Assembly (NCBI RefSeq): GCF_014649115.1
Contig: NZ_BMSK01000003.1
Location: 434,001-498,000, forward strand
Length of the DNA stretch: 64,000 nucleotides
Direction of reading: 5' to 3'
Source: Streptomyces eurythermus
GTDB taxonomy: Bacteria > Actinomycetota > Actinomycetes > Streptomycetales > Streptomycetaceae
In this document: piece after piece, positions 9,724 through 33,982 of the stretch
How positions within the stretch are numbered: the stretch's first letter is position 1
How the letters are laid out: every line of letters starts with the position of its first letter
Position numbers and translations under genes: made by a program
Notes under the pieces: generated by a model
What the model was told of the DNA's origin: nothing
Database searches by the model: none
The model's input: only the letters and a program-made list of their open reading frames with translations

Positions 9724-10661
9724 CCCGTGTGGCCGCCGTCGACTGCGGTACGAACTCCATCCGGCTGCTGGTCGCCGACGCCGACCCGGCGACCGGGGAA
9801 CTGACCGAGCTGGACCGCCGGATGACGATCGTGCGGCTCGGCCAGGACGTCGACCGCACCGGCCGGCTCGCCCCGGAGGCGCTGGAGCGCACCTTCGCCG
9901 CCTGCCGCGAGTACGCCGGGATCATCAAGGAGCACGGCGCCCAGCGGGTCCGCTTCGTCGCCACCTCCGCCTCCCGGGACGCCGAGAACCGCGAGGACTT
10001 CGTGCGCGGCGTGCTGGACATCCTCGGGGTGGAGCCGGAGGTCATCACCGGCGACCAGGAGGCCGAGTTCTCCTTCACCGGCGCCACGAGGGAACTCACC
10101 GGCCGTACCGACCTCGCCCGGCCCTACCTGGTGGTGGACATCGGCGGCGGCTCCACCGAGTTCGTCGTCGGCGACGATCATGTGCGCGCCGCGCGGTCGG
10201 TGGACATCGGCTGCGTGCGGATGACCGAGCGGCACCTGGTGCGCGGCGGCGAGGTCTCCGACCCGCCCACCGGGGAGCAGATCGCGGCCATAAGGGCCGA
10301 TGTGGAGGCCGCCCTGGACCTGGCCGAGCGGACGGTCCCGCTGCGCGAGGCGCGCACCCTGGTGGGTCTGGCCGGCTCGGTCACCACGGTGTCCGCGATC
10401 GCCCAGGAGCTGCCCGAGTACGACTCGGCGCGCATCCACCACTCCCGGATCTCCCAAGAGCGCGTCCGGGAGATCACCGAGTGGCTGCTGCGCTCCACGC
10501 ACGCCGAGCGCGCCGCCGTCCCGTCCATGCACCCGGGCCGGGTCGACGTCATCGGCGCGGGCGCCCTCGTCCTGCTCGCGATCATGGAACGCACGGGCGC
10601 CGAGGAGGTCGTGGTGAGCGAGCACGACATCCTGGACGGCATCGCGTGGTCGGTGGCGTAG
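9720..10661 (+). CDS. ppx: Ppx/GppA family phosphatase (exopolyphosphatase type)
   Basis: A 313-residue member of the ASKHA-fold Ppx/GppA family, hydrolysing polyphosphate and/or pppGpp. Visible nucleotide-phosphate loops are AAVDCGTNSIRLLVAD at the N-terminus and VDIGGGSTEFVVG near residue 140. The GxGxF-type adenosine segment is replaced by the VGLAGSVTTVSAIAQ loop. The length fits the short form (Ppx1/Ppx2 of mycobacteria), which lacks the C-terminal HD domain of E. coli Ppx. Starts at GTG overlapping the DUF501 stop. Which substrate it prefers cannot be told from sequence. Confidence 0.87.
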   Translation: MTRVAAVDCGTNSIRLLVADADPATGELTELDRRMTIVRLGQDVDRTGRLAPEALERTFAACREYAGIIKEHGAQRVRFVATSASRDAENREDFVRGVLDILGVEPEVITGDQEAEFSFTGATRELTGRTDLARPYLVVDIGGGSTEFVVGDDHVRAARSVDIGCVRMTERHLVRGGEVSDPPTGEQIAAIRADVEAALDLAERTVPLREARTLVGLAGSVTTVSAIAQELPEYDSARIHHSRISQERVREITEWLLRSTHAERAAVPSMHPGRVDVIGAGALVLLAIMERTGAEEVVVSEHDILDGIAWSVA

Positions 10662-10722
10662 GTCCCTTTTGTTACTCGCCGGTAGCCGACCGCTGAGCAG
10701 GTTGGATAACGTTTGAGCGGCC

Positions 10723-10748
10723 CGGAGGGCCCCCTCGGGGGCCCTCCG
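10723..10748 (+). terminator. Hairpin terminator after ppx
   Basis: CGGAGGGCCCC (10723-10733) pairs with GGGGCCCTCCG (10738-10748) around a 4-nt loop. No U-run follows, as is common for Streptomyces terminators. Confidence 0.7.
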
Positions 10749-10768
10749 TCGTATGCGCGCGGAAAAGT

Positions 10769-10786
10769 TCGTGAAGTTCTTCACAA
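10769..10786. promoter_or_regulatory. Candidate Rex operator 1 upstream of ndh
   Basis: TcGTGAA-gttc-TTCACAA matches the Rex operator consensus TTGTGAAnnnnTTCACAA at 13 of the 14 specified positions. Rex is the NADH/NAD+-sensing repressor of respiratory genes in actinobacteria. A role here is inferred from the match and from the downstream NADH dehydrogenase. Confidence 0.6.
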
Positions 10787-10849
10787 GGAATTGGGGCCCG
10801 GGGGTCCCCCGGACGGGGCCGGTTGGCCCTTCCGGGGCGTTAACGACCG

Positions 10850-10865
10850 TTTGAACATGTTCAGA
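10850..10865. promoter_or_regulatory. Candidate Rex operator 2 upstream of ndh
   Basis: TTTGAACATGTTCAGA contains the perfect 12-bp palindrome TGAACATGTTCA and resembles the S. coelicolor cyd-type operator (TGTGAAC..GTTCACA), with two symmetric changes. It lies 80 bp from candidate operator 1. Confidence 0.45.
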
Positions 10866-11105
10866 TGAAGGGCGCGAACGGGCCCTGGAGGAGGCTGTTC
10901 CGGAGGTGTCACGACACTCTCACGACCACCCCGCGACTCCGGAGAGGCTGCTCACGCGGCCTTGACAACGGGGCGAACCGCCGCGCGGTTCCCGCCGAAC
11001 CGCATGACCTCGGTCACGCGGGTCGCGGAGTTTAACACAGGGCCTGTCGGTTCTTGTGAAGGGGCGCACGAGCGACCCCCCTGGGGCGGGTGGATACTCG
11101 ATGGC

Positions 11106-12485
11106 ATGAGCACCACGGAGCGTCCCAGGATCCTCGTAGTAGGCGGTGGGTACGTAGGCCTGTACGCAGCTCGGCGCATCCTCAAGAAGATGCGCTACGG
11201 CGAGGCGACCGTCACGGTCGTCGACCCCCGGTCGTACATGACCTACCAGCCCTTCCTCCCCGAAGCCGCCGCCGGCAGCATCTCCCCTCGCCACGTCGTC
11301 GTCCCGCTGCGACGCGTGCTGCCGAAGGCGGAGGTCCTCACCGGTCGGGTCACCACCATCGACCAGGACCGCAAGGTCGCCACGATCGCCCCGCTGGTGG
11401 GCGAGGCGTACGAGCTGCCCTTCGACTACCTGGTCATCGCCATGGGCGCGGTCTCCCGCACCTTCCCGATCCCCGGCCTCGCCGAACAGGGCATCGGCAT
11501 GAAGGGCATCGAGGAGTCCATCGGCCTGCGCAACCACGTTCTGGAGCAGCTGGACAAGGCCGACTCCACGACCGACGAGGAGATCCGCCGCAAGGCGCTC
11601 ACCTTCGTCTTCATCGGCGGCGGCTTCGCGGGCGCGGAGACCATCGGCGAGGTCGAGGACATGGCCCGGGACGCGGCCAAGTACTACAAGAACGTGTCCC
11701 GCGAGGACATGCGTTTCATCCTCGTCGACGCCGCCGACAAGATCCTCCCCGAGGTCGGCCCCAAGCTCGGCCAGTACGGCAAGGAGCACCTGGAGAGCCG
11801 GGGCGTGGAGATCTACCTCTCCACCTCCATGGACTCCTGTGTCGACGGCCACGTGGTGCTGAAGAACGGCCTCGAGGTCGACGCCAACACCATCGTGTGG
11901 ACGGCCGGCGTCAAGCCGAACCCGGCCCTCGCCCGCTTCGGCCTGCCCCTCGGCCCGCGCGGCCACGTCGACTGCGAGCCCACGCTCCAGGTCAAGGGCA
12001 CGGACTACATCTGGGCCGCCGGTGACAACGCACAGGTCCCGGACCTCGTCGGCCGCAAGGCGGGCAACGAGAACGCCTGGTGCCCGCCGAACGCCCAGCA
12101 CGCGCTGCGCCAGGCCAAGGTCCTCGGCGACAACGTGGTCTCCGGTATGCGGGGCTTCCCGCAGAAGGAGTACGAGCACGCCAACAAGGGTGCCGTCGCC
12201 GGCCTCGGCCTGCACAAGGGCGTGGCGATGATCGTCATGGGCAAGATGAAGATCAAGCTCAAGGGCCGTCTCGCCTGGTACATGCACCGTGGCTACCACG
12301 GTCTGGCGATGCCGACCTGGAACCGCAAGATCCGCATCTTCGCCGACTGGACCCTCGGCATGTTCCTCAAGCGCGAGGTCGTCTCCCTCGGCGCCATGGA
12401 GAACCCGCGCGAGGAGTTCTACGAGGCCGCCAAGCCGGCGCCGGTCGCCGCCGCCAAGCCGGAGGAGAAGGCCAAGGCCTCCTGA
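11106..12485 (+). CDS. ndh: Type II NADH dehydrogenase (non-proton-pumping NDH-2)
   Basis: A 459-residue FAD protein that oxidises NADH and reduces menaquinone at the membrane surface. The N-terminal FAD dinucleotide fold is RILVVGGGYVGLYAARRI. A second fold for NADH is FVFIGGGFAGAETIGE (about residue 170). The quinone/FAD block is YIWAAGDNAQVPD, followed by the AQHALRQAKVLGDN segment. The C-terminal amphipathic region (GRLAWYMHRGYHGLAMP) fits membrane attachment. The ATG at 11101 is followed at once by TGA, so 11106 is the start. Two Rex-like palindromes upstream suggest induction when NADH is high. Confidence 0.92.
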   Translation: MSTTERPRILVVGGGYVGLYAARRILKKMRYGEATVTVVDPRSYMTYQPFLPEAAAGSISPRHVVVPLRRVLPKAEVLTGRVTTIDQDRKVATIAPLVGEAYELPFDYLVIAMGAVSRTFPIPGLAEQGIGMKGIEESIGLRNHVLEQLDKADSTTDEEIRRKALTFVFIGGGFAGAETIGEVEDMARDAAKYYKNVSREDMRFILVDAADKILPEVGPKLGQYGKEHLESRGVEIYLSTSMDSCVDGHVVLKNGLEVDANTIVWTAGVKPNPALARFGLPLGPRGHVDCEPTLQVKGTDYIWAAGDNAQVPDLVGRKAGNENAWCPPNAQHALRQAKVLGDNVVSGMRGFPQKEYEHANKGAVAGLGLHKGVAMIVMGKMKIKLKGRLAWYMHRGYHGLAMPTWNRKIRIFADWTLGMFLKREVVSLGAMENPREEFYEAAKPAPVAAAKPEEKAKAS

Positions 12486-12706: not shown

Positions 12707-13999
12707 ATGGCCGACGCCGCGCAGCGGCTGAGGAGTCTTGCCGAACAGGTGCTGGGAGCCCCGCTCCCGGTGCGGCTGAGGGCCTGGGACGGATCGCAGG
12801 GCGGCCCGCCGGACGCGCCGGCACTCGTGGTGCGCAACCGCCGCGCCCTGCGCCGGATGCTCTTCAAACCCGGTGAACTGGGCCTCGCCCGCGCCTGGGT
12901 CTCCGGCGACCTGGACGTCGAGGGCGACCTGTACACCGTGCTGGACGCGATGGCCGGCCTGATCTGGGAGCGCGGCGAGGACGCCCGCACCCTGCGCCAG
13001 GCCGTGCGCGACCCGGCTGTCCGGGCCGCCGTCCGCGACCTGCTGAAACTGGCCGGACCGCCGATCCCGCCCACCCCGCCGCGCGAGGAGATGCGCAGAC
13101 CCCGCCGGCACCTGCACACCCGCCGCACCGACAAGCGGGCCATCAGCCACCACTACGACGTCGGCAACGACTTCTACGAGATCGTCCTCGGCCCCTCCAT
13201 GGTCTACTCCTGCGCCTACTGGGAGGAGGACGGCACCCTGGAGACCGCCCAGCGCGACAAGCTCGAACTGATCTGCGCCAAGCTGGGCCTGAAGGAGGGT
13301 CAGCGGCTGCTCGACGTCGGCTGCGGCTGGGGCTCCATGGCCATCCACGCGGCCCGCGAGCACGGGGTGAGCGTCGTCGGGGTCACCCTGTCGCAGGAGC
13401 AGGCCGCCTACGCCCGCAAGCGCGTCGCCGACGCGGGGCTGACCGACCGGGTGGAGATCAGGGTCCAGGACTACCGGGACGTCGTGGACGGCCCCTACGA
13501 CGCGATCTCCTCCATCGGCATGGCCGAACACGTCGGCGCCGAACGCTACCTGGAGTACGCCCGCCAGCTGTACGCCCTGCTCGCGCCCGGCGGCCGGCTG
13601 CTCAACCACCAGATCGCCCGCCGCCCGCAGCGGGACGAGTCGGCGTACGAGGTGGACGAGTTCATCGACTCCTACGTCTTCCCCGACGGCGAACTCGCCC
13701 CCGTCGGCACCACCGTCACCCAGCTGGAGCGGGCCGGGTTCGAGGTGCGGGACGTGGAGTCCATCCGCGAGCACTACGCCCGCACCCTGCGCCGCTGGGT
13801 GGCCAACCTGGAGGACGACTGGGACCGCGCGGTCCGGCTCACCAGCCCGGGCCGGGCCCGGGTGTGGCGGCTGTACATGGCCGCCTCCGCGCTCGCCTTC
13901 GAACGCAACCGGATCGGTGTCAACCAGGTCCTCGCGGTCCGCACCCCCGTCTCCGGTGCCTCCGGGCTCCCGCTGCGGCCCCGCACCTGGCACGGCTGA
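12707..13999 (+). CDS. Cyclopropane-fatty-acyl-phospholipid synthase family methyltransferase
   Basis: A 430-residue CFA synthase-type enzyme that would transfer a methyl(ene) group from SAM to unsaturated acyl chains of phospholipids. The N-terminal region (about 1-130) is the lipid-binding part with an SCP2-like character. The HYDVGNDFYEIVLGPSMVYS block is the family hallmark. The SAM loop LLDVGCGWGSMAIHA lies near residue 201. The motifs GVTLSQEQ, IGMAEHVG (bicarbonate/base region) and LNHQIARRP are also present. The ATG at 12707 has GGAGG nine bases upstream. Monocistronic between two terminators. Cyclopropanation, methylation or 10-methyl branching cannot be told apart here. Confidence 0.87.
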   Translation: MADAAQRLRSLAEQVLGAPLPVRLRAWDGSQGGPPDAPALVVRNRRALRRMLFKPGELGLARAWVSGDLDVEGDLYTVLDAMAGLIWERGEDARTLRQAVRDPAVRAAVRDLLKLAGPPIPPTPPREEMRRPRRHLHTRRTDKRAISHHYDVGNDFYEIVLGPSMVYSCAYWEEDGTLETAQRDKLELICAKLGLKEGQRLLDVGCGWGSMAIHAAREHGVSVVGVTLSQEQAAYARKRVADAGLTDRVEIRVQDYRDVVDGPYDAISSIGMAEHVGAERYLEYARQLYALLAPGGRLLNHQIARRPQRDESAYEVDEFIDSYVFPDGELAPVGTTVTQLERAGFEVRDVESIREHYARTLRRWVANLEDDWDRAVRLTSPGRARVWRLYMAASALAFERNRIGVNQVLAVRTPVSGASGLPLRPRTWHG

Positions 14000-14030
14000 C
14001 CGCCCGCGCCGGACAGCCGGTACGCACGGC

Positions 14031-14061
14031 AAAAGGGGGCCCCTTCCCGAGGGGCCCCCTT
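14031..14061. terminator. Bidirectional terminator between the CFA synthase and ABC transporter genes
   Basis: AAGGGGGCCCC (14033-14043) pairs with GGGGCCCCCTT (14051-14061), loop 7 nt. On the - strand it is followed by TTTT (from AAAA at 14031), so it best serves the - strand ABC operon. Confidence 0.88.
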
Positions 14062-14078
14062 CACCGTCGTACGGCCGG

Positions 14079-16607
14079 CTACTCGGCCTTGATCGCCGTG
14101 AGCATGTTCAGCCGGGCCGCGCGGCGGGCCGGCCACAGGGCGGCCAGGACGCCGATCACGCCCGCCAGCAGCAGGAAGACCGCCATCCGGCCCCACGGCA
14201 GCTGCAGTTCGTACGTCGGTATCTCCGTGGCCAGCAGCTCGCCGGCCGCCCAGCCGAAGAACACGCCCAGGCCGAGGCCCAGCACCCCGCCGAACAGGGA
14301 GATCACCAGGGACTCCAGGCGGACCATCCGCTTGACCGCCCCGCGGTCCAGACCGATCGCGCGGAGCATGCCGATCTCCTGCGCGCGCTCGAAGACTGAC
14401 ATGGCCAGCGTGTTGACGACGCCGAGCACCGCGACGATCACCGCCATGCCGAGCAGGCCGTAGACCATGTTCAGCACCTGCGTGAACACGTTCCCGATCT
14501 CATGGGAGATGTCCTGCTTGTCCTGGATCTTGACCGCCGGGTTGGTGTCGAGGGTCTTCACCAGCCCCTTCTTGGCCGCGTCGGACGCGCCGTCCGCCAT
14601 CTTGACCATGACCCGCATGTCGGCCGGGTCGGTCAGGTGCGGGGTGAGGACCTTGTTGTCGAGGATGATCCCGTTGAACATGTCGTTGCCCTCGTAGACC
14701 CCGGCGACGGTCAGCCGGCGGGTCGCGCCGTCCTCGAAGTGCGCGGTGAGCTGCGAACCGGGCTTCCAGCCGTGCTTCTCGGCCCGGTCCTCGTCCACGA
14801 CGATGCGCGTGCCGCCCACCGAGAAGGAGCCGTCGGTCATCTTCAGGTCGGTCAGCTTGCCGATGGCCGCGCCGTCGACGCCGGTCAGCCACTGGGTGCC
14901 GCCGTCGACGCGGGACTCGCCGTTGCGCAGCGGGCTGCTGGCGGTGACGCCGTCGGCGGTGGCGAGCTTCTTCGCCACGTCGGGGGAGAGCGGGCCCTGG
15001 TTGGCCATCGAGACGACGTAGTCGGCGCGGATCGCGGAGCTGGCCATCCGGTCGATGGAGGACTGCAGGCTGCCCGCCATCACCGTCATGCCGGTGATCA
15101 GGGTCAGGCCGATCATCAGCGCGGAGGCGGTGGCCGCGGTACGGCGCGGGTTGCGCACCGAGTTCTGGCGGGCCAGCTTGCCCGACACCCCGAAGGCGCG
15201 CAGCACCGGCGAGGCGAGGGCGATCAGCGGGCGGGACAGCAGCGGGGTCAGCACGAACACGCCGATGATCAGCAGGACCGCGCCGATGCCCATCGGGCCC
15301 TGGGCGGAGTCGGAGTCCATGTTCGTGGCCATGAGAACCACCGCGATGCCGGCGGCCGCGAACAGCGAGCCGAGCGTGTTGCGCAGGACCAGGGACTTGG
15401 TGGTGGCCTTGGCGTGCAGGCTGCTCATCGCCGCCACCGGCGGGATCTTCGCGGCGCGCCGGGCGGGCAGCCAGGCGGCGAGCACGGTGACGAGGATGCC
15501 GACGGCGAGGGCGGCGACCACCGTACCGGAGCCGATCACCAGCGGTCCGTCGGGCACGGACTCGCCCAGGGAGCCCAGCAGGGAGCGCAGGCCCGCGCCG
15601 ATGCCGATACCGGCCACCAGACCGGCCACGCCGGCGACCGTGCCGACGGCGAACGCCTCCACGAGCACCGAGCGGGTGACCTGGCGGCGGGAGGCGCCGA
15701 CCGCCCGCAGCAGGGCGAGTTCACGGGTGCGCTGGGCGACCAGCATGGTGAAGGTGTTGGCGATGATGAAGGTGCCGACGAACAGGGCGATGCCCGCGAA
15801 CACCAGCAGGCTCTTCTTCAGGCCGCTCAGGGAGTCGGCGATCGCCGCCGCCTGGTCGTCGGCGAGCCGCTCGCCGGTGGTGGTCTCCACCAGCTTCCCG
15901 GGCAGGGCCTTGTCCAGCGCGGCCTTGAGCGCCTCCTGGCTGGTTCCGGCCGCCGCCCGCACGTCGATCTCGTCGTACGTGCCCTTCTTGCCGAACAGGG
16001 ACTGCGCGGTCGGCGTGTCGAACAGGGTGAGGCTGCCGCCGGCGGCCACGTTGCCGTCGTCGGTGGTGAAGATGCCGCTGACGGTGGGGGTGAGGACCGG
16101 GCCGTCGACGGAGAGGCGCACGGTGTCGCCGACCTTGAAGCCGGCCCGCTCGGCCGTCGCGGAGTCGATCAGCACCTGACCCTTGCCGCGCGGGGCGTGG
16201 CCGCTGACCAGGGGGTAGCGGGGGTCCTCGGTGCCCCAGTAGTTGCCGCCGGCCGACTGCCAGTCGCCGCCGACGAGTTCGCCGTCCTTGCCGGCGACGG
16301 CGGTGAAGCCGGTGACGACGCCGGTGGCGGAGGCGGCCCCGGGGACCTTGGCCGCCCGGTCCAGCAGGGCCTGGGTCAGCTCGGCGTCCTTGCCGACCCG
16401 ATCGCCCTCGGAATCCTGGTACTTGGGCCGTACGGCGACATCGACCTGGTCGAAGCCCTTGGCGAAACTCTTCTGGTAGGCGTCGGAGAGGGTGTTGGTG
16501 AAGACCAGCGTGCCGGAGACGAACGCGACGCCGAGCATGACGGCGAGCACGGTCATCAGCAGCCGGGCCTTGTGCGCGAGGACGTTGCGCAGGGCGGTGC
16601 GGAACAT
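14079..16607 (-). CDS. ABC transporter permease, FtsX/MacB type, two-module
   Basis: An 842-residue membrane protein with the duplicated FtsX architecture of actinobacterial export/lipoprotein-release permeases. It has an N-terminal TM (LLMTVLAVMLGVAFVSGTLV), then a periplasmic MacB-PCD-like domain of ~210 residues. Three TMs near residues 265-390 (ALFVGTFIIANTFTMLVAQ, RTRELALLRAVGASRRQV) follow, then a second TM at about 490 with ASALMIGLTLITGMTVM. A second extracytoplasmic domain precedes three C-terminal TMs including FERAQEIGMLRAIGLDRG. Both modules carry the ALLRAVGAS / GMLRAIGL coupling motif. Its ATG overlaps the ATPase stop by one base (TGATG), so the two are translated together. Substrate unknown; such pairs often export peptides, antibiotics or wall factors. 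Confidence 0.9.
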   Translation of the reverse strand: MFRTALRNVLAHKARLLMTVLAVMLGVAFVSGTLVFTNTLSDAYQKSFAKGFDQVDVAVRPKYQDSEGDRVGKDAELTQALLDRAAKVPGAASATGVVTGFTAVAGKDGELVGGDWQSAGGNYWGTEDPRYPLVSGHAPRGKGQVLIDSATAERAGFKVGDTVRLSVDGPVLTPTVSGIFTTDDGNVAAGGSLTLFDTPTAQSLFGKKGTYDEIDVRAAAGTSQEALKAALDKALPGKLVETTTGERLADDQAAAIADSLSGLKKSLLVFAGIALFVGTFIIANTFTMLVAQRTRELALLRAVGASRRQVTRSVLVEAFAVGTVAGVAGLVAGIGIGAGLRSLLGSLGESVPDGPLVIGSGTVVAALAVGILVTVLAAWLPARRAAKIPPVAAMSSLHAKATTKSLVLRNTLGSLFAAAGIAVVLMATNMDSDSAQGPMGIGAVLLIIGVFVLTPLLSRPLIALASPVLRAFGVSGKLARQNSVRNPRRTAATASALMIGLTLITGMTVMAGSLQSSIDRMASSAIRADYVVSMANQGPLSPDVAKKLATADGVTASSPLRNGESRVDGGTQWLTGVDGAAIGKLTDLKMTDGSFSVGGTRIVVDEDRAEKHGWKPGSQLTAHFEDGATRRLTVAGVYEGNDMFNGIILDNKVLTPHLTDPADMRVMVKMADGASDAAKKGLVKTLDTNPAVKIQDKQDISHEIGNVFTQVLNMVYGLLGMAVIVAVLGVVNTLAMSVFERAQEIGMLRAIGLDRGAVKRMVRLESLVISLFGGVLGLGLGVFFGWAAGELLATEIPTYELQLPWGRMAVFLLLAGVIGVLAALWPARRAARLNMLTAIKAE

Positions 16608-17377
16608 CAGCTGGTACGGCCCTTCGCGTCGAACTGCTTCATCGTGTCGAGGACGGACTCGGCCGTGGGGCCGTACATCTCGTCGACGATCCGGCCGTCG
16701 GCCAGGAAGATCACCCGGTCGGCGTAGGCGGCGGCCACCGGGTCGTGGGTCACCATGACCACCGTCTGGCCCAGCTCGCGCACGGAGTTGCGCAGGAAGC
16801 CGAGGACCTCGGCGCCGGAGCGGGAGTCCAGGTTGCCGGTGGGCTCGTCACCGAAGATGATCTCGGGCTTGGAGGCGAGGGCGCGGGCCACGGCGACGCG
16901 CTGCTGCTGGCCGCCGGACAGCTGGGAGGGCCGGTGGCCGAGGCGCCCGGACAGACCCACCATCTGGATGACCTGATCCAGCCACGCCTTGTCCGGCTTC
17001 CGCCCGGCGATGTCCATCGGGAGGGTGATGTTCTCCAGCGCGGTCAGCGTCGGCAGCAGGTTGAACGCCTGGAAGATGAAGCCGATCTTGTCCCGGCGCA
17101 ACTTGGTGAGCTGCTTGTCCTTCAGGGAGCCCAGCTCGGTGTCGCCGATCCGCACGGACCCGGAGGAGAAGGTGTCCAGACCGGCCACGCAGTGCATCAG
17201 CGTGGACTTGCCGGAACCGGACGGACCCATGATGGCGGTGAACTCGGCGGCCCGGAAGTCGACGGAGACCCGGTCCAGGGCGACCACCCGGGTCTCACCC
17301 TGCCCGTAGATCTTCGACAGCTCCATGGCGCGCGCGGCGACGGCGGTGGTCCGGCCGGCGGTGGGTGTGGTGGTCAC
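16607..17377 (-). CDS. ABC transporter ATP-binding protein, MacB/LolD type
   Basis: A 256-residue ATPase. It has Walker A GPSGSGKSTLMH, Q-loop FIFQAFNLLPTLTALEN, signature LSGGQQQRVAVARALA, Walker B IIFGDEPTGNLD, and H-loop VMVTHDPVAAAYADR. The sequence around the Q-loop places it in the MacB/LolD/FtsE clade, which partners FtsX-type permeases, in agreement with the coupled gene downstream. The GTG at 17377 (VTTTPT) is the likely start, with aggagc upstream. First gene of a two-gene operon ending at the terminator near 14040. Confidence 0.93.
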   Translation of the reverse strand: MTTTPTAGRTTAVAARAMELSKIYGQGETRVVALDRVSVDFRAAEFTAIMGPSGSGKSTLMHCVAGLDTFSSGSVRIGDTELGSLKDKQLTKLRRDKIGFIFQAFNLLPTLTALENITLPMDIAGRKPDKAWLDQVIQMVGLSGRLGHRPSQLSGGQQQRVAVARALASKPEIIFGDEPTGNLDSRSGAEVLGFLRNSVRELGQTVVMVTHDPVAAAYADRVIFLADGRIVDEMYGPTAESVLDTMKQFDAKGRTS

Positions 17378-17792
17378 GGGACGGTGCTCCTACTCGGGAC
17401 GACGTGTTTCCTGGGGACCGTTCCATCGTCCCGGCGCGGTGCGCGCCCGGAGTCAGTCGCTGTTCCGGTTCCGGGGGGCGACTGGGGTCGGACGCGGGGC
17501 CGCCGTGTCATACCTGGGGAGGACGGCTGACCCTGAGGGGAGGCGGGGCGCTCCGATGGCTGTCCGGGATCTCGTTAACCGGTGGACCGGTCTTGTTCGA
17601 GCGGTGAAATTCCGTCATTTCGCGTACACGCGCACACCTCTCGCGGCACGCTGTTGGCAAGTGCGGATGGCTAGTTCCGTCCGCTGATGCCCACTCAGAC
17701 GTCAATAAAATAAGACAACATCGGTCCACCCATCCGCTGTTCGGGGGATGGGTCCCGATAGGCTCGGACCCTCGATGCGGAGCCCCTGGCAA
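17378..17792. other. Intergenic region between the ABC operon and bldA
   Basis: 415 bp holding the divergent promoters for the ABC operon (- strand) and the bldA tRNA (+ strand). An AT-rich run lies at 17703-17718 (caataaaataagacaa). A possible -10 TAGGCT lies at 17759-17764, just upstream of the tRNA. Short open frames here lack Streptomyces codon bias and I do not call them. Confidence 0.5.
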
Positions 17793-17876
17793 GCCCGGAT
17801 GGTGGAATGCAGACACGGCGAGCTTAAACCTCGCTGCCCCTTCGCGGGCGTGCCGGTTCGAGTCCGGCTCCGGGCA
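17793..17876 (+). tRNA. bldA: tRNA-Leu, anticodon UAA (bldA)
   Basis: Acceptor arms GCCCGGA (17793-17799) and TCCGGGC (17869-17875) pair perfectly. The anticodon stem GCGAG/CTCGC (17818-17822 and 17830-17834) encloses the loop CTTAAAC, so the anticodon is TAA (17825-17827) and it reads UUA. A long variable arm (tgccccttcgcgggcg) and T arm GCCGG-TTCGAGT-CCGGC fit a class II leucine tRNA. CCA is not encoded. In Streptomyces this is the only tRNA for the rare UUA codon, and it gates morphological differentiation and secondary metabolism. Confidence 0.97.
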
Positions 17877-18045
17877 CTTTCCGCCTCTTGGCGCGTTTTG
17901 TACGGCTATGGCCGCAGTATGAGGACGCTCCGTCGGCTTGGGTCGCTTCCGGCAAGCCCCTCCACCGTCGGCGCCCGCCCGCGACCGCCGCTCACGTGTC
18001 GCCGGTCGCCGGTGTATCCCTGATCCCCCGATCCGAGCCCGGCCA

Positions 18046-18075
18046 TTGACAGTCCGGTCCGGTCGGGCCGAGACT
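18046..18075 (+). promoter_or_regulatory. Promoter of pobA
   Basis: A consensus -35 TTGACA (18046-18051) and -10-like GAGACT (18070-18075) with an 18-bp spacer predict a start near 18082. This is immediately upstream of the operator at 18087. Confidence 0.6.
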
Positions 18076-31712: not shown

Positions 31713-32087
31713 TCAGACCTCCAGCTCCTCCTCGATCCTGCGCAGCTGGTGCCGGGCCATCGCCAGATTGGCCCGGGAGGAGTCCAGGACCAGGTACAGG
31801 AACAGTCCGTTGCCGCCCCTGCCCTTGAGCAGGCGGATCAGGTGGTACTGGTCCGTCAGGGTGATCAGGATGTCCTCGATCTCGCTCTTGAGGCCGAGGA
31901 GTTCCATCGTGCGCATCTTGGCGCGGACCACGTCGGTGTTGCCGGCGGCGGCCACGTTCAGATCGAAGCTCGCGCTGTCGCCCATCGTGCCCAGCGCCAT
32001 TCCGCTGGTGTAGTCGACGAGCGCGGCTCCGGTGGCGCCCGCGATGGTGGTGAGGGCCTGCTTCAGGGCGGTCGCGGTGTCGGACAT
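31713..32087 (-). CDS. Roadblock/LC7 domain protein (third roadblock of the operon)
   Basis: A 124-residue single-domain protein. It starts MSDTATALKQALTTIAGATG, with the strand block GAALVDYTSGMALGTMG, a long helix (SEIEDILITLTDQYHLIRLL) and a C-terminal strand GNGLFLYLVLDSSRANLA, then a basic helix. The roadblock/LC7 fold is that of MglB and CvnB, which bind small GTPases or dimerise as scaffolds. It is a clear paralogue of the first gene of the operon (ALVDYTSGMALG against ALVDWTSGLALG). No GTPase gene is nearby. Last gene of the four-gene unit; 10 bp from the previous one. Confidence 0.85.
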   Translation of the reverse strand: MSDTATALKQALTTIAGATGAALVDYTSGMALGTMGDSASFDLNVAAAGNTDVVRAKMRTMELLGLKSEIEDILITLTDQYHLIRLLKGRGGNGLFLYLVLDSSRANLAMARHQLRRIEEELEV

Positions 32088-32097
32088 GGGGGTCCTC

Positions 32098-32577
32098 TCA
32101 GCTGTCGGTTGCGGTGCGGGCGTCGGCGGCCGGGGTGCGCGGCACGCGGGGGCCCGGGGGGCGTGCGGGGGTGGTGCCGGTCAGCGGGCGTACGGCCTCG
32201 GCGGCGTCCAGCAGCTCCCCGACGCGGGCGCCGGCCCGGCGGCCCTCCAGGTGCAGCCGGCCCACGTTGACCCGGTCCTGGGCGAGCAGCGTCAGCACGG
32301 CGGTGCGGCCGGCCGCGTAGGTGGCGACATAGCCGCGCTCGCCGCGCACCAGCAGCTCCCGCAGGGCCCCGTTCCCGGTGGCGTCGGAGGTCCGTACGGC
32401 GACCCCGAGCGCGGCGGCGGTGAGCGCGGCCAGGCCCTCGGGGTCGACGCCGGGGGTGTCGTGGGCGATGACGAGGCCGTCGACGCCGGCCGCGAGGGCA
32501 CCGGTGAGCTGCGGCACCCGGGTGCGCAGCCGGTGCAGTTCGGCCAGCACGGCCCGCAGGTCGTCCTCGGTCACCAT
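32098..32577 (-). CDS. Roadblock/LC7-type protein with C-terminal tail
   Basis: A 159-residue protein. The roadblock-like core (about 1-115) begins VTEDDLRAVLAELHRLRTRVP and contains DGLVIAHDTPGVDPEGLAAL, GNGALRELLVRGERGYVATYAAG and TAVLTLLAQDRVNVGRLHLE. This pattern recalls CvnB/MglB-type proteins more than the other two roadblocks here. A Pro/Arg-rich tail follows (PLTGTTPARPPGPRV). AAAGGAG lies six to seven bases before the ATG. Third gene of the operon. The partner is unknown. Confidence 0.75.
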   Translation of the reverse strand: MVTEDDLRAVLAELHRLRTRVPQLTGALAAGVDGLVIAHDTPGVDPEGLAALTAAALGVAVRTSDATGNGALRELLVRGERGYVATYAAGRTAVLTLLAQDRVNVGRLHLEGRRAGARVGELLDAAEAVRPLTGTTPARPPGPRVPRTPAADARTATDS

Positions 32578-32608
32578 CAGCTGTCTCCTTTCGGCGGGGC
32601 GGTGCCGT

Positions 32609-33424
32609 TCAAAGCGCCTCCAGCGCATCCCTGAGCCTCTTCAGCAGCGCGATGTCGGGGTCGGTGGTGACCGGGAGAGGGGGTGGTGCGGGCGGCGGGC
32701 CGGGGTCCGCGGGCACCGGCGCGATCCGGCCGGCCGCGGTGAGCCGGCGGACGTCGACCAGCGTGTGGAAGGCCTGCCGGCCCAGGTCCCGGGCCAGGTC
32801 GGCGGCCGTGCGGACGCCGTCCACGCGGTCCAGGACGGCCCGCTGCCGGGGGGTGACCGGCAGGGCGGGGGCGGGAGCGGGTGCCGGGTCGGCGCGGATC
32901 AGCGGGGCGCTGTCGGCGGCCGGGTCCGGCCACAGCCGGTGCAGCAGCAGCCGGCGGCGCAGCGTCTCGCGCTCCAGCGCGACCACCGGCACCGAGGGCA
33001 GCGGGCCGAGCCGGGGCCCGGCGCCGTACCGGAACCGGCCCGGGGTGCCGCTCGGCGCCAGCGCGAAGTACCCGGCGTCGTACAGCGCGTCCAGGTGGCA
33101 CAGTTCCAGCGCGCCGGTGGGCAGCACTCCGGAGCGCAGCAGCGCCTCCGCCGCCCGCGCGGGGTCCGGGGCCCGGGCGGCGGCGCGCTGCCAGGCGGCG
33201 GCCGCGAGGGTGCCGTGGGCCGTGAGGAGCACGCCGAGATCCGGGGCGAGGGGGCTCTCGGCGTGCACCACCCGGCCCTCGGCGAGATACAGGACGCCGT
33301 GTTCGCGGACCAGGACACCGGTGGCCCGCTCCTCGGCGAGCCGGGTCAGCATCGGGGACAGGGCGCGCGCGGCCCGCCTGTCCCGCACCGGCAGGGCCGG
33401 CGGAGGGATCCGCACCATGGTCAT
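32609..33424 (-). CDS. DUF4388/PatA-N-like protein in the roadblock operon
   Basis: A 271-residue protein. The N-terminal ~130 residues include the pattern ATGVLVREHGVLYLAEGRVVHAESP, which resembles the DUF4388 (PatA N-terminal) domain found with signalling proteins. The middle is helical (APDPARAAEALLRSGVLPTGALELC). A winged-helix-like segment follows (about 200-245; LDRVDGVRTAADLARDLGRQ), reminiscent of PatA-like C-terminal repeats, with a Pro-rich linker around it. The ATG at 33424 overlaps the stop of the preceding gene (ATGA). Role inferred: adaptor or sensor in a roadblock signalling module. Confidence 0.6.
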   Translation of the reverse strand: MTMVRIPPPALPVRDRRAARALSPMLTRLAEERATGVLVREHGVLYLAEGRVVHAESPLAPDLGVLLTAHGTLAAAAWQRAAARAPDPARAAEALLRSGVLPTGALELCHLDALYDAGYFALAPSGTPGRFRYGAGPRLGPLPSVPVVALERETLRRRLLLHRLWPDPAADSAPLIRADPAPAPAPALPVTPRQRAVLDRVDGVRTAADLARDLGRQAFHTLVDVRRLTAAGRIAPVPADPGPPPAPPPLPVTTDPDIALLKRLRDALEAL

Positions 33425-33804
33425 CCCAGCACCAGCCGGGCGGCCATCTCGCCGAGCCGGATCCGGGCCAGCGCCAGGTTGCCCTCCTCGCGGCCGAGCC
33501 ACAGGTGCAGGAACACGCTGCTGTCGAAGGAGGTGTCCACGAACCGCAGCAGGTGGTAGCTGTCACCGTTGCTGACGATCAGGTCCTCCACGGGCGGCAG
33601 CCCCGCGCGGACCGTGGCGAAGGTGCCGTGCTCGGCGGCCAGCCGGGCCAGTTCGGCGGCCTCGGCGGCACTCGTCTCGTGGTCCCCGCCGGGGGCCTCC
33701 CCGACCGCGCCGAGGGCCAGTCCGCTCGTCCAGTCCACCAGCGCGGCTCCCCGGGCACCGGGCAGGCGCATCGCTTCCAGTAAGCACTCGTCGATTCCGG
33801 GCAC
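33421..33804 (-). CDS. Roadblock/LC7 domain protein with a TTA leucine codon (operon leader gene)
   Basis: A 127-residue single-domain roadblock protein (VPGIDECLLEAMRLPG, then GAALVDWTSGLALGAVG, a helix with PPVEDLIVSNGDSYHLLRFV and strand SVFLHLWLGREEGNLA). GTG start at 33804 with gggaggaag upstream. The eighth codon is TTA (33783-33781 on the - strand), the only in-frame TTA I found in the window. It is therefore expected to depend on the bldA tRNA. Being the first gene and coupled (ATGA) to the next, this TTA could gate the whole unit. Paralogue of the gene at 31713. Confidence 0.85.
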   Translation of the reverse strand: MPGIDECLLEAMRLPGARGAALVDWTSGLALGAVGEAPGGDHETSAAEAAELARLAAEHGTFATVRAGLPPVEDLIVSNGDSYHLLRFVDTSFDSSVFLHLWLGREEGNLALARIRLGEMAARLVLG

Positions 33805-33892
33805 CGTGGCTTCCTCCCGCCTGGGACTCCGGCTGAGTGACGCCGACACTACGCAACGTGTGTGCGGGAGGAGGGGCCTTTGGCATTTTCCG

Positions 33893-33943
33893 GTGGAACA
33901 TGCGTCCGACGTACTAGTGTTGTCCAACTGACGTGTGTTCCAC
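33893..33943. promoter_or_regulatory. Long-spaced inverted repeat upstream of the roadblock operon
   Basis: GTGGAACA (33893-33900) and TGTTCCAC (33936-33943) are perfect inverted arms with a 35-bp spacer, 43 bp apart start-to-start (about four helical turns). They lie 90-140 bp before the operon start. This spacing suits two cooperating dimers or a looped complex. The region contains no gene. Confidence 0.5.
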
Positions 33944-33982
33944 GGCGGTTGAGCCGTCCGTGCGGCCGGCGGCCGGGGCGCG

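Follow-up and report, generated by a model that had tools for sequence, protein, structure and literature searches.

The window, by which we mean the whole 64,000-nucleotide stretch of Streptomyces eurythermus DNA analysed here, carries a four-gene operon, A-B-C-D, on its minus strand (33804-31713). All four reading frames are present where the initial annotation had placed them. We give an even chance to the reading that A-B-C-D encodes the regulators of a bacterial small G-protein system but not the G protein itself, and that these regulators work in trans on conservon GTPases. The kinship of C with CvnB and of B with CvnC, combined with the presence of D near conservons or Ras-like GTPases in 10 of 56 loci, makes the operon a relative of the conservons and of the MglA/MglB world that lacks their switch. 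The initial annotation had suggested a different signalling or scaffolding module; this interpretation is partly supported, but the operon is not unrelated to those systems. No description of the A-B-C-D operon was found in the open-access literature searched, as the initial annotation had expected of an undescribed system.

Gene layout and conservation

The first gene, A (33421..33804, minus strand; 127 aa), encodes a roadblock-family paralogue and begins with GTG behind a GGAGG-type ribosome site. It overlaps B (32609..33424, minus strand; 271 aa) in an ATGA at 33424-33421. After a gap of 31 bp comes C (32098..32577, minus strand; 159 aa), whose start is the ATG at 32577 following AAAGGAG; a further in-frame ATG lies upstream, within B. 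D (31713..32087, minus strand; 124 aa) follows 10 bp after C. The dense packing originally described, with its ATGA overlap and gaps of 10-31 bp, was thus seen again.

A possible control region lies 5′ of A (33805..33950, minus strand), as judged by column conservation. Many columns there are 80-95% or more conserved across the window and 78 Streptomyces loci. Conserved stretches around AGTTGGACAACACTAG and GCATGTTCCACCGGAAAATGCC, read in the direction of A, may mark a regulator or promoter site, and the conserved columns had no match to any known regulator.

A genome scan with D returned at least 526 relatives, of which the best 80, all from Streptomyces, were taken. By tblastn, 77 of these 80 loci show the order A-B-C-D, which excludes a chance grouping. 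Two of the exceptions end at contig edges (L081, L091), and in the third (L092) B was recovered by gene calling. The 4 bp overlap of A and B is present in 75 of 78 measured loci. All 32 dN/dS values, from eight pairs and four genes, fall between 0.08 and 0.58, those of C being calculated on a longer called frame that starts inside B. A relative of hutU is also present in 76 of the 80 loci.

Across the class, A/D-type proteins were found in 106 of 394 genomes (27 of 137 genera), and across the phylum in 18 of 296 genomes (9 of 198 genera). D itself had a match in 43 of 61 relatives, spanning 4 of 14 genera. A further 57 neighbourhoods were chosen by hand and are not a random sample; 56 have a called A/D gene, and in the other (L193) no A/D gene was called and the search match contains stops. 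Among these hand-chosen loci, a one-direction A-B-C-D was seen in 9 of 12 from family f86 and two from f6 (L250 and L182, the C of L182 being recovered in the gap). D is divergent from A-B-C in three f3 loci and two from Streptomyces (L125-L128, L134), and five f87 loci have D alone. Genome-wide synteny, which had been proposed as a check, therefore bears the grouping out both within Streptomyces and in other families. Conservation in several related bacterial families suggests a shared controller or scaffold.

The four genes that flank the operon in Streptomyces have no relatives in 16 operon loci (from f86, f6, f3 and the two divergent-type Streptomyces), so A-B-C-D themselves are the unit. 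A link to the upstream PLP decarboxylase-like gene, to hutU or to the two downstream genes is disfavoured, as none of them is conserved in these 16 loci.

C is a canonical roadblock protein related to CvnB and MglB

C matches the roadblock profile PF03259 with 64.4 bits (E 7.8e-18, cut-off 23). It is the sole protein of the operon to exceed a Pfam cut-off, and is thus a canonical Roadblock/LC7 member. When C was aligned with CvnB using hhalign, the probability was 97.3% (E 1.9e-11). A search of solved structures by sequence gave six matches for C, among them an archaeal roadblock, CvnB5 and MglB chains.

In a tree of C and CvnB, which has long branches and is unrooted, a branch with support 98/93 sets CvnB apart, and operon C falls outside it. 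C proteins from the GTPase-bearing clusters of f18 are closer to CvnB in this tree than operon C is. The idea that C is a recent conservon fragment is disfavoured by its place outside the CvnB branch, again with the caveat of long branches.

B resembles DUF4388 in one half and CvnC in the other

B has a DUF4388-like N-terminal part, a winged helix, and a C-terminal helix related to CvnC/DUF742. The Pfam DUF4388 match covers residues 26-87, and the CvnC/DUF742-related part about residues 170-271. B had been called a DUF4388-like protein. The resemblance to DUF4388 (PF14332) stands, but the match is weak, at 15.7 bits against a curated cut-off of 25. PF14332 was matched at E up to 0.1 by 53 of 72 B proteins (best 6e-5), with no match at 0.05 in those of L238, L244 and L250. 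A distant relative of B in L186 reached 58.8 bits (E 7.2e-16). We take the DUF4388 part of B to be PATAN-like.

On profile-profile comparison over 87-88 columns, the C-terminal half of B resembles CvnC/DUF742, with a probability of 83% in a first test and 91% with more rows. The score of 47.3 compares with a best of 16.8 in 60 column shuffles and 10.8 in one reversed profile. The match rests partly on the winged helix, a common fold; B had no match to an ArsR winged-helix profile (0.6%). Restricting the comparison to the 11 B proteins from f86 and f6 gave a probability of only 27%. PF05331 was touched by 5 of the 72 B proteins (best E 0.019), and the CvnC profile alone picked up a frame in a single one of the 80 Streptomyces loci. 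The DUF4388-like half of B is absent from the CvnC proteins we saw.

B and CvnC also share an end motif. LLxxLxx[GA]LxxL occurs at the very C-terminus of 114 of 150 distinct B-like proteins, 10 of 13 CvnC proteins and none of 1,893 other distinct proteins, though the motif was drawn from the B and CvnC families themselves, and the count shows its rarity and is not a prediction. Many of the B-like exceptions carry the motif with one extra residue, and it is absent from the five divergent-type B proteins (L125-L128, L134). A C-terminal helix common to B and CvnC suggests that the two bind the same partner.

Structural searches added little for B. The B profile found nothing credible among solved structures by sequence, and Foldseek with the whole of B gave no E-value below 0.001. 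In VIA, rows reached Z 8.3 and were mostly winged helix, within the chance range of that tool.

A and D are roadblock-family paralogues

A and D are paralogous, with an hhalign profile-profile probability of 99.5%, and profile-profile comparison linked neither of them to C or CvnB. Against PF03259, A scores 15.6 bits (E 0.014), under the curated cut-off of 23, and the Pfam profile search gave no match for D. Within the A/D family as a whole, 56 of 100 members match PF03259 at E up to 0.1 (best 2.7e-4). A search of solved structures by sequence, with D as query and with the A/D profile, returned nothing credible.

D is nevertheless predicted to have the roadblock fold. A model built from 40 D and 60 A sequences in one alignment has a mean pLDDT of 91.2, and its order of helix, two strands, helix, three strands and helix is the roadblock topology. 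VIA aligned the model to MglB 6hjm over 116 residues (Z 16.8, rmsd 2.1). Its other neighbours were a roadblock of S. avermitilis (Z 16.6), the Ragulator subunit 5y3a_B (Z 15.7) and MglC (Z 12.0), with profilins and Rag C-terminal domains in lower rows. The best Foldseek E-value was to MglC 7ct3 (3.8e-7), whereas the VIA scores (16.8 versus 12.0) put D nearer MglB than MglC. The assignment of A as a roadblock protein rests on its kinship with D. The original count of three roadblock proteins, two of them paralogues, thus agrees with our data: C qualifies by sequence, and by the roadblock profile search that had been suggested, D by predicted fold and A by kinship.

In the A/D tree, a branch with support 99/96 separates A from the D proteins, those of the operon along with the stand-alone, conservon-adjacent and GTPase-adjacent copies. 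The tree is unrooted, has few columns for its rows, and contains several long branches. The D family may help to mark G-protein signalling genes that largely escape Pfam.

GTPases, conservons and ArsR-type genes in the genome and neighbourhoods

Searched against every frame of the window and of the 80 Streptomyces loci, profiles for CvnA, CvnD and ArsR-type proteins matched nothing, in agreement with the initial annotation, which saw neither kinase nor GTPase in the operon. Its broader statement that no conservon partner is visible holds for those two components, but not for the others, as C is like CvnB (97%) and B, in its C-terminal half, is like CvnC (83-91%).

The S. eurythermus genome has nine places matching PF03259, seven matching DUF742 and seven Ras-like GTPase loci, the last all on contigs other than that of the window. 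A conservon GTPase query and an f18 GTPase query found the same seven loci (eight match rows, two being pieces of one gene). Six of the seven adjoin their DUF742 gene, and the seventh is about 3.7 kb away. A clearly orphan GTPase was sought as a partner for the operon, as had been proposed, and none of the seven loci is clearly free: all are near a DUF742 gene, the one on contig 27 being the least certain. There (13047-18048; L141, L147), the genes between the GTPase and the DUF742 gene about 3.7 kb off are hydantoinase-like by eye. On contig 18 (12292-12877; L140, L152, L153), a GTPase in two pieces is broken or misassembled, and belongs to one of two adjacent, closely similar conservons. C and a second roadblock protein, on contig 10, are encoded on contigs where neither DUF742 nor a GTPase is matched. 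The one on contig 10 (L001:1501-1773), another orphan roadblock, scores best against PF03259 genome-wide.

Within six genes of the A/D gene, a GTPase was found in 10 of the 56 loci, B in 22, C in 24 (25 with L182) and an ArsR-type gene in 14. No GTPase was found within that distance in the other 46 loci, nor in 20 of the 22 that carry B, nor in the f86, f6 and f3 operon loci looked at, where the search was for the conservon type. By chance, a GTPase would be expected within a six-gene window at about 1% of places, an estimate from seven GTPases in 9.17 Mb that takes no account of the loci being related. GTPases thus occur near A/D genes more than chance would predict on that estimate.

Conservons lie within six genes of D in two Streptomyces loci (L121, L194) and four from f3 (L129, L130, L131, L135), with no CvnB called in L131. 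In L194 one frame (10143-12044) matches both the CvnA and CvnB profiles, a possible fusion; the related L121 has a separate gene for each, and the two overlap. GTPases also occur within six genes of D in L187 (f40) and L192 (f14), the latter short and weak (PF03029, 14.6 bits). Two f18 genomes (L185, L186) have a single cluster of a DUF4388-type protein, a Ras-like GTPase, C and D, and the GTPases of both exceed the PF00071 cut-off. In L186 the gene run is the DUF4388 protein (E 7.2e-16), the Ras-like GTPase, C and two D genes.

In one Streptomyces locus (L138:12967-17016), a cvnA-cvnB pair is located four genes upstream of A-B-C-D; the 18 kb fetched there had no cvnC or cvnD match. Of 12 stand-alone D loci from Streptomyces, 10 have a conserved ArsR-type winged-helix gene adjoining D (L119-L124 and L194-L197; not L132 or L190).

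Proposed role and alternative explanations

If A-B-C-D does act in trans on conservon GTPases, C would be a CvnB/MglB-type roadblock dimer with GAP-like activity. B, whose DUF4388-like domain is joined to a winged helix resembling that of CvnC and to a C-terminal helix as in CvnC, would be GEF-like. A and D, as two old roadblock paralogues and by analogy with the effect of MglC on MglB, may join or modulate the C dimer, and the four proteins probably form a heteromeric complex. Its targets would be one or more of the cell's seven conservon GTPases, and through them it could link several conservons or damp them. These roles are drawn from what is described for related proteins. In the available excerpts of PMC13343842 and PMC13015309, mycobacterial MfpD, homologous to CvnB, is a GAP, and MfpC, homologous to CvnC, is likely a GEF, with one figure legend of PMC13015309 swapping the two labels. 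The excerpt of PMC7949163 describes MglC binding MglB 2:4, placed between two MglB dimers. As stated in the excerpt of PMC8510531, Streptomyces carry many conservons, among which cross-talk is suspected and unexplained. We regard a conserved GAP-like and GEF-like set without a switch as a candidate for it. It is tempting, though more tentative, to extend this to a stand-alone GAP-GEF-scaffold complex that serves as a shared trans-regulator hub, coordinating the parallel conservon pathways of an actinomycete. A GTPase may have been lost, as opposed to never having been present; the trees are unrooted.

The main rival to action in trans on conservon GTPases, and one that we hold to be possible but rather doubtful, is that the module has left G-protein signalling altogether and is a GTPase-free scaffold. 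A, C and D would then form roadblock dimers or heterodimers, like those of Ragulator, and the winged helix of B would contact DNA or another protein. The lack of a conservon-type GTPase in the window, in the 80 Streptomyces loci and, up to six genes away from the operon, in those loci of f86, f6 and f3 that we inspected would fit this, as would the Ragulator roadblock subunit 5y3a_B among the close structural neighbours of D (VIA Z 15.7). The best VIA rows of B include winged-helix parts of GATOR1/SEA, but their Z-scores of 7.5-8.3 are within the chance range of the tool. To contrast, relatives of B, C and D are coupled to a GTPase in f18, some D genes are next to conservons, and CvnB- and CvnC-like parts have both been kept, which would be superfluous for a pure scaffold. 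The ArsR-type genes beside D raise another explanation, an improbable one in our judgement, in which proteins of the D family target winged-helix regulators of the ArsR type, and the operon works in the cytoplasm as the sensor or anti-regulator of one such protein encoded elsewhere. The pairing is seen in 10 of the 12 stand-alone Streptomyces D loci and in L251, and PF01022 confirmed one such regulator. However, it belongs to other copies of D, a conservon is nearby as well in L121 and L194, and the window and the 80 Streptomyces operon loci hold no relative of the D-adjacent ArsR gene.

Finally, the operon has some form of two conservon parts and lacks the other two, and some conservons are reported to have lost their GTPase (PMC4316618, in the excerpt available), so it might be a decaying, functionless conservon remnant. 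We consider this very improbable. Decay is disfavoured by dN/dS, below 0.6 in every comparison, and by a gene order intact in nearly all the Streptomyces loci and in f86, f6 and f3. Also against it, C lies outside the CvnB branch (98/93), and B has a DUF4388-like half that the CvnC proteins we saw lack.

Comparison with known systems

Conservons (CvnA-D) share with A-B-C-D a tight operon in actinomycetes, a CvnB-like protein (C) and a CvnC-like half with its end motif (in B), and the D family is sometimes found near them. In contrast to conservons, A-B-C-D lacks the kinase and GTPase, has a DUF4388-like half and two extra roadblock paralogues, and follows another gene order.

Ragulator (LAMTOR) has several roadblock subunits without nucleotide binding, and D aligns to one of its subunits, 5y3a_B. 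Ragulator is eukaryotic and binds Rag GTPases, so the likeness is an analogy only. For the MglB-MglC pair of Myxococcus, we know of no CvnC-like partner. This pair, as described in the excerpt of PMC7949163, similarly combines a roadblock protein of the GAP type with a divergent paralogue, also a roadblock protein, which binds to it. MglC 7ct3 gave D its best Foldseek E-value, a similarity of fold alone; D is structurally closer to MglB, and unlike our operon, Myxococcus has MglA.

We take PATAN to be linked to DUF4388. The excerpt of PMC4316618 (Wuichet and Sogaard-Andersen 2014) notes PATAN genes near some MglA, and the operon likewise has a roadblock gene adjoining one for a PatA-N-type protein, but without MglA. 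It also describes a small actinobacterial MglB clade, exclusively orphan and without flanking conservon genes. C fits this account, the comparison being by description only. The clade was set aside there in favour of coupled pairs, and A, B and D are absent from that passage.

The f18 genomes contain a second roadblock-DUF4388-type set divergent from the first (L186:960-3684, GTPase included, and L185:6211-7847), which suggests duplicated MglA-type systems.
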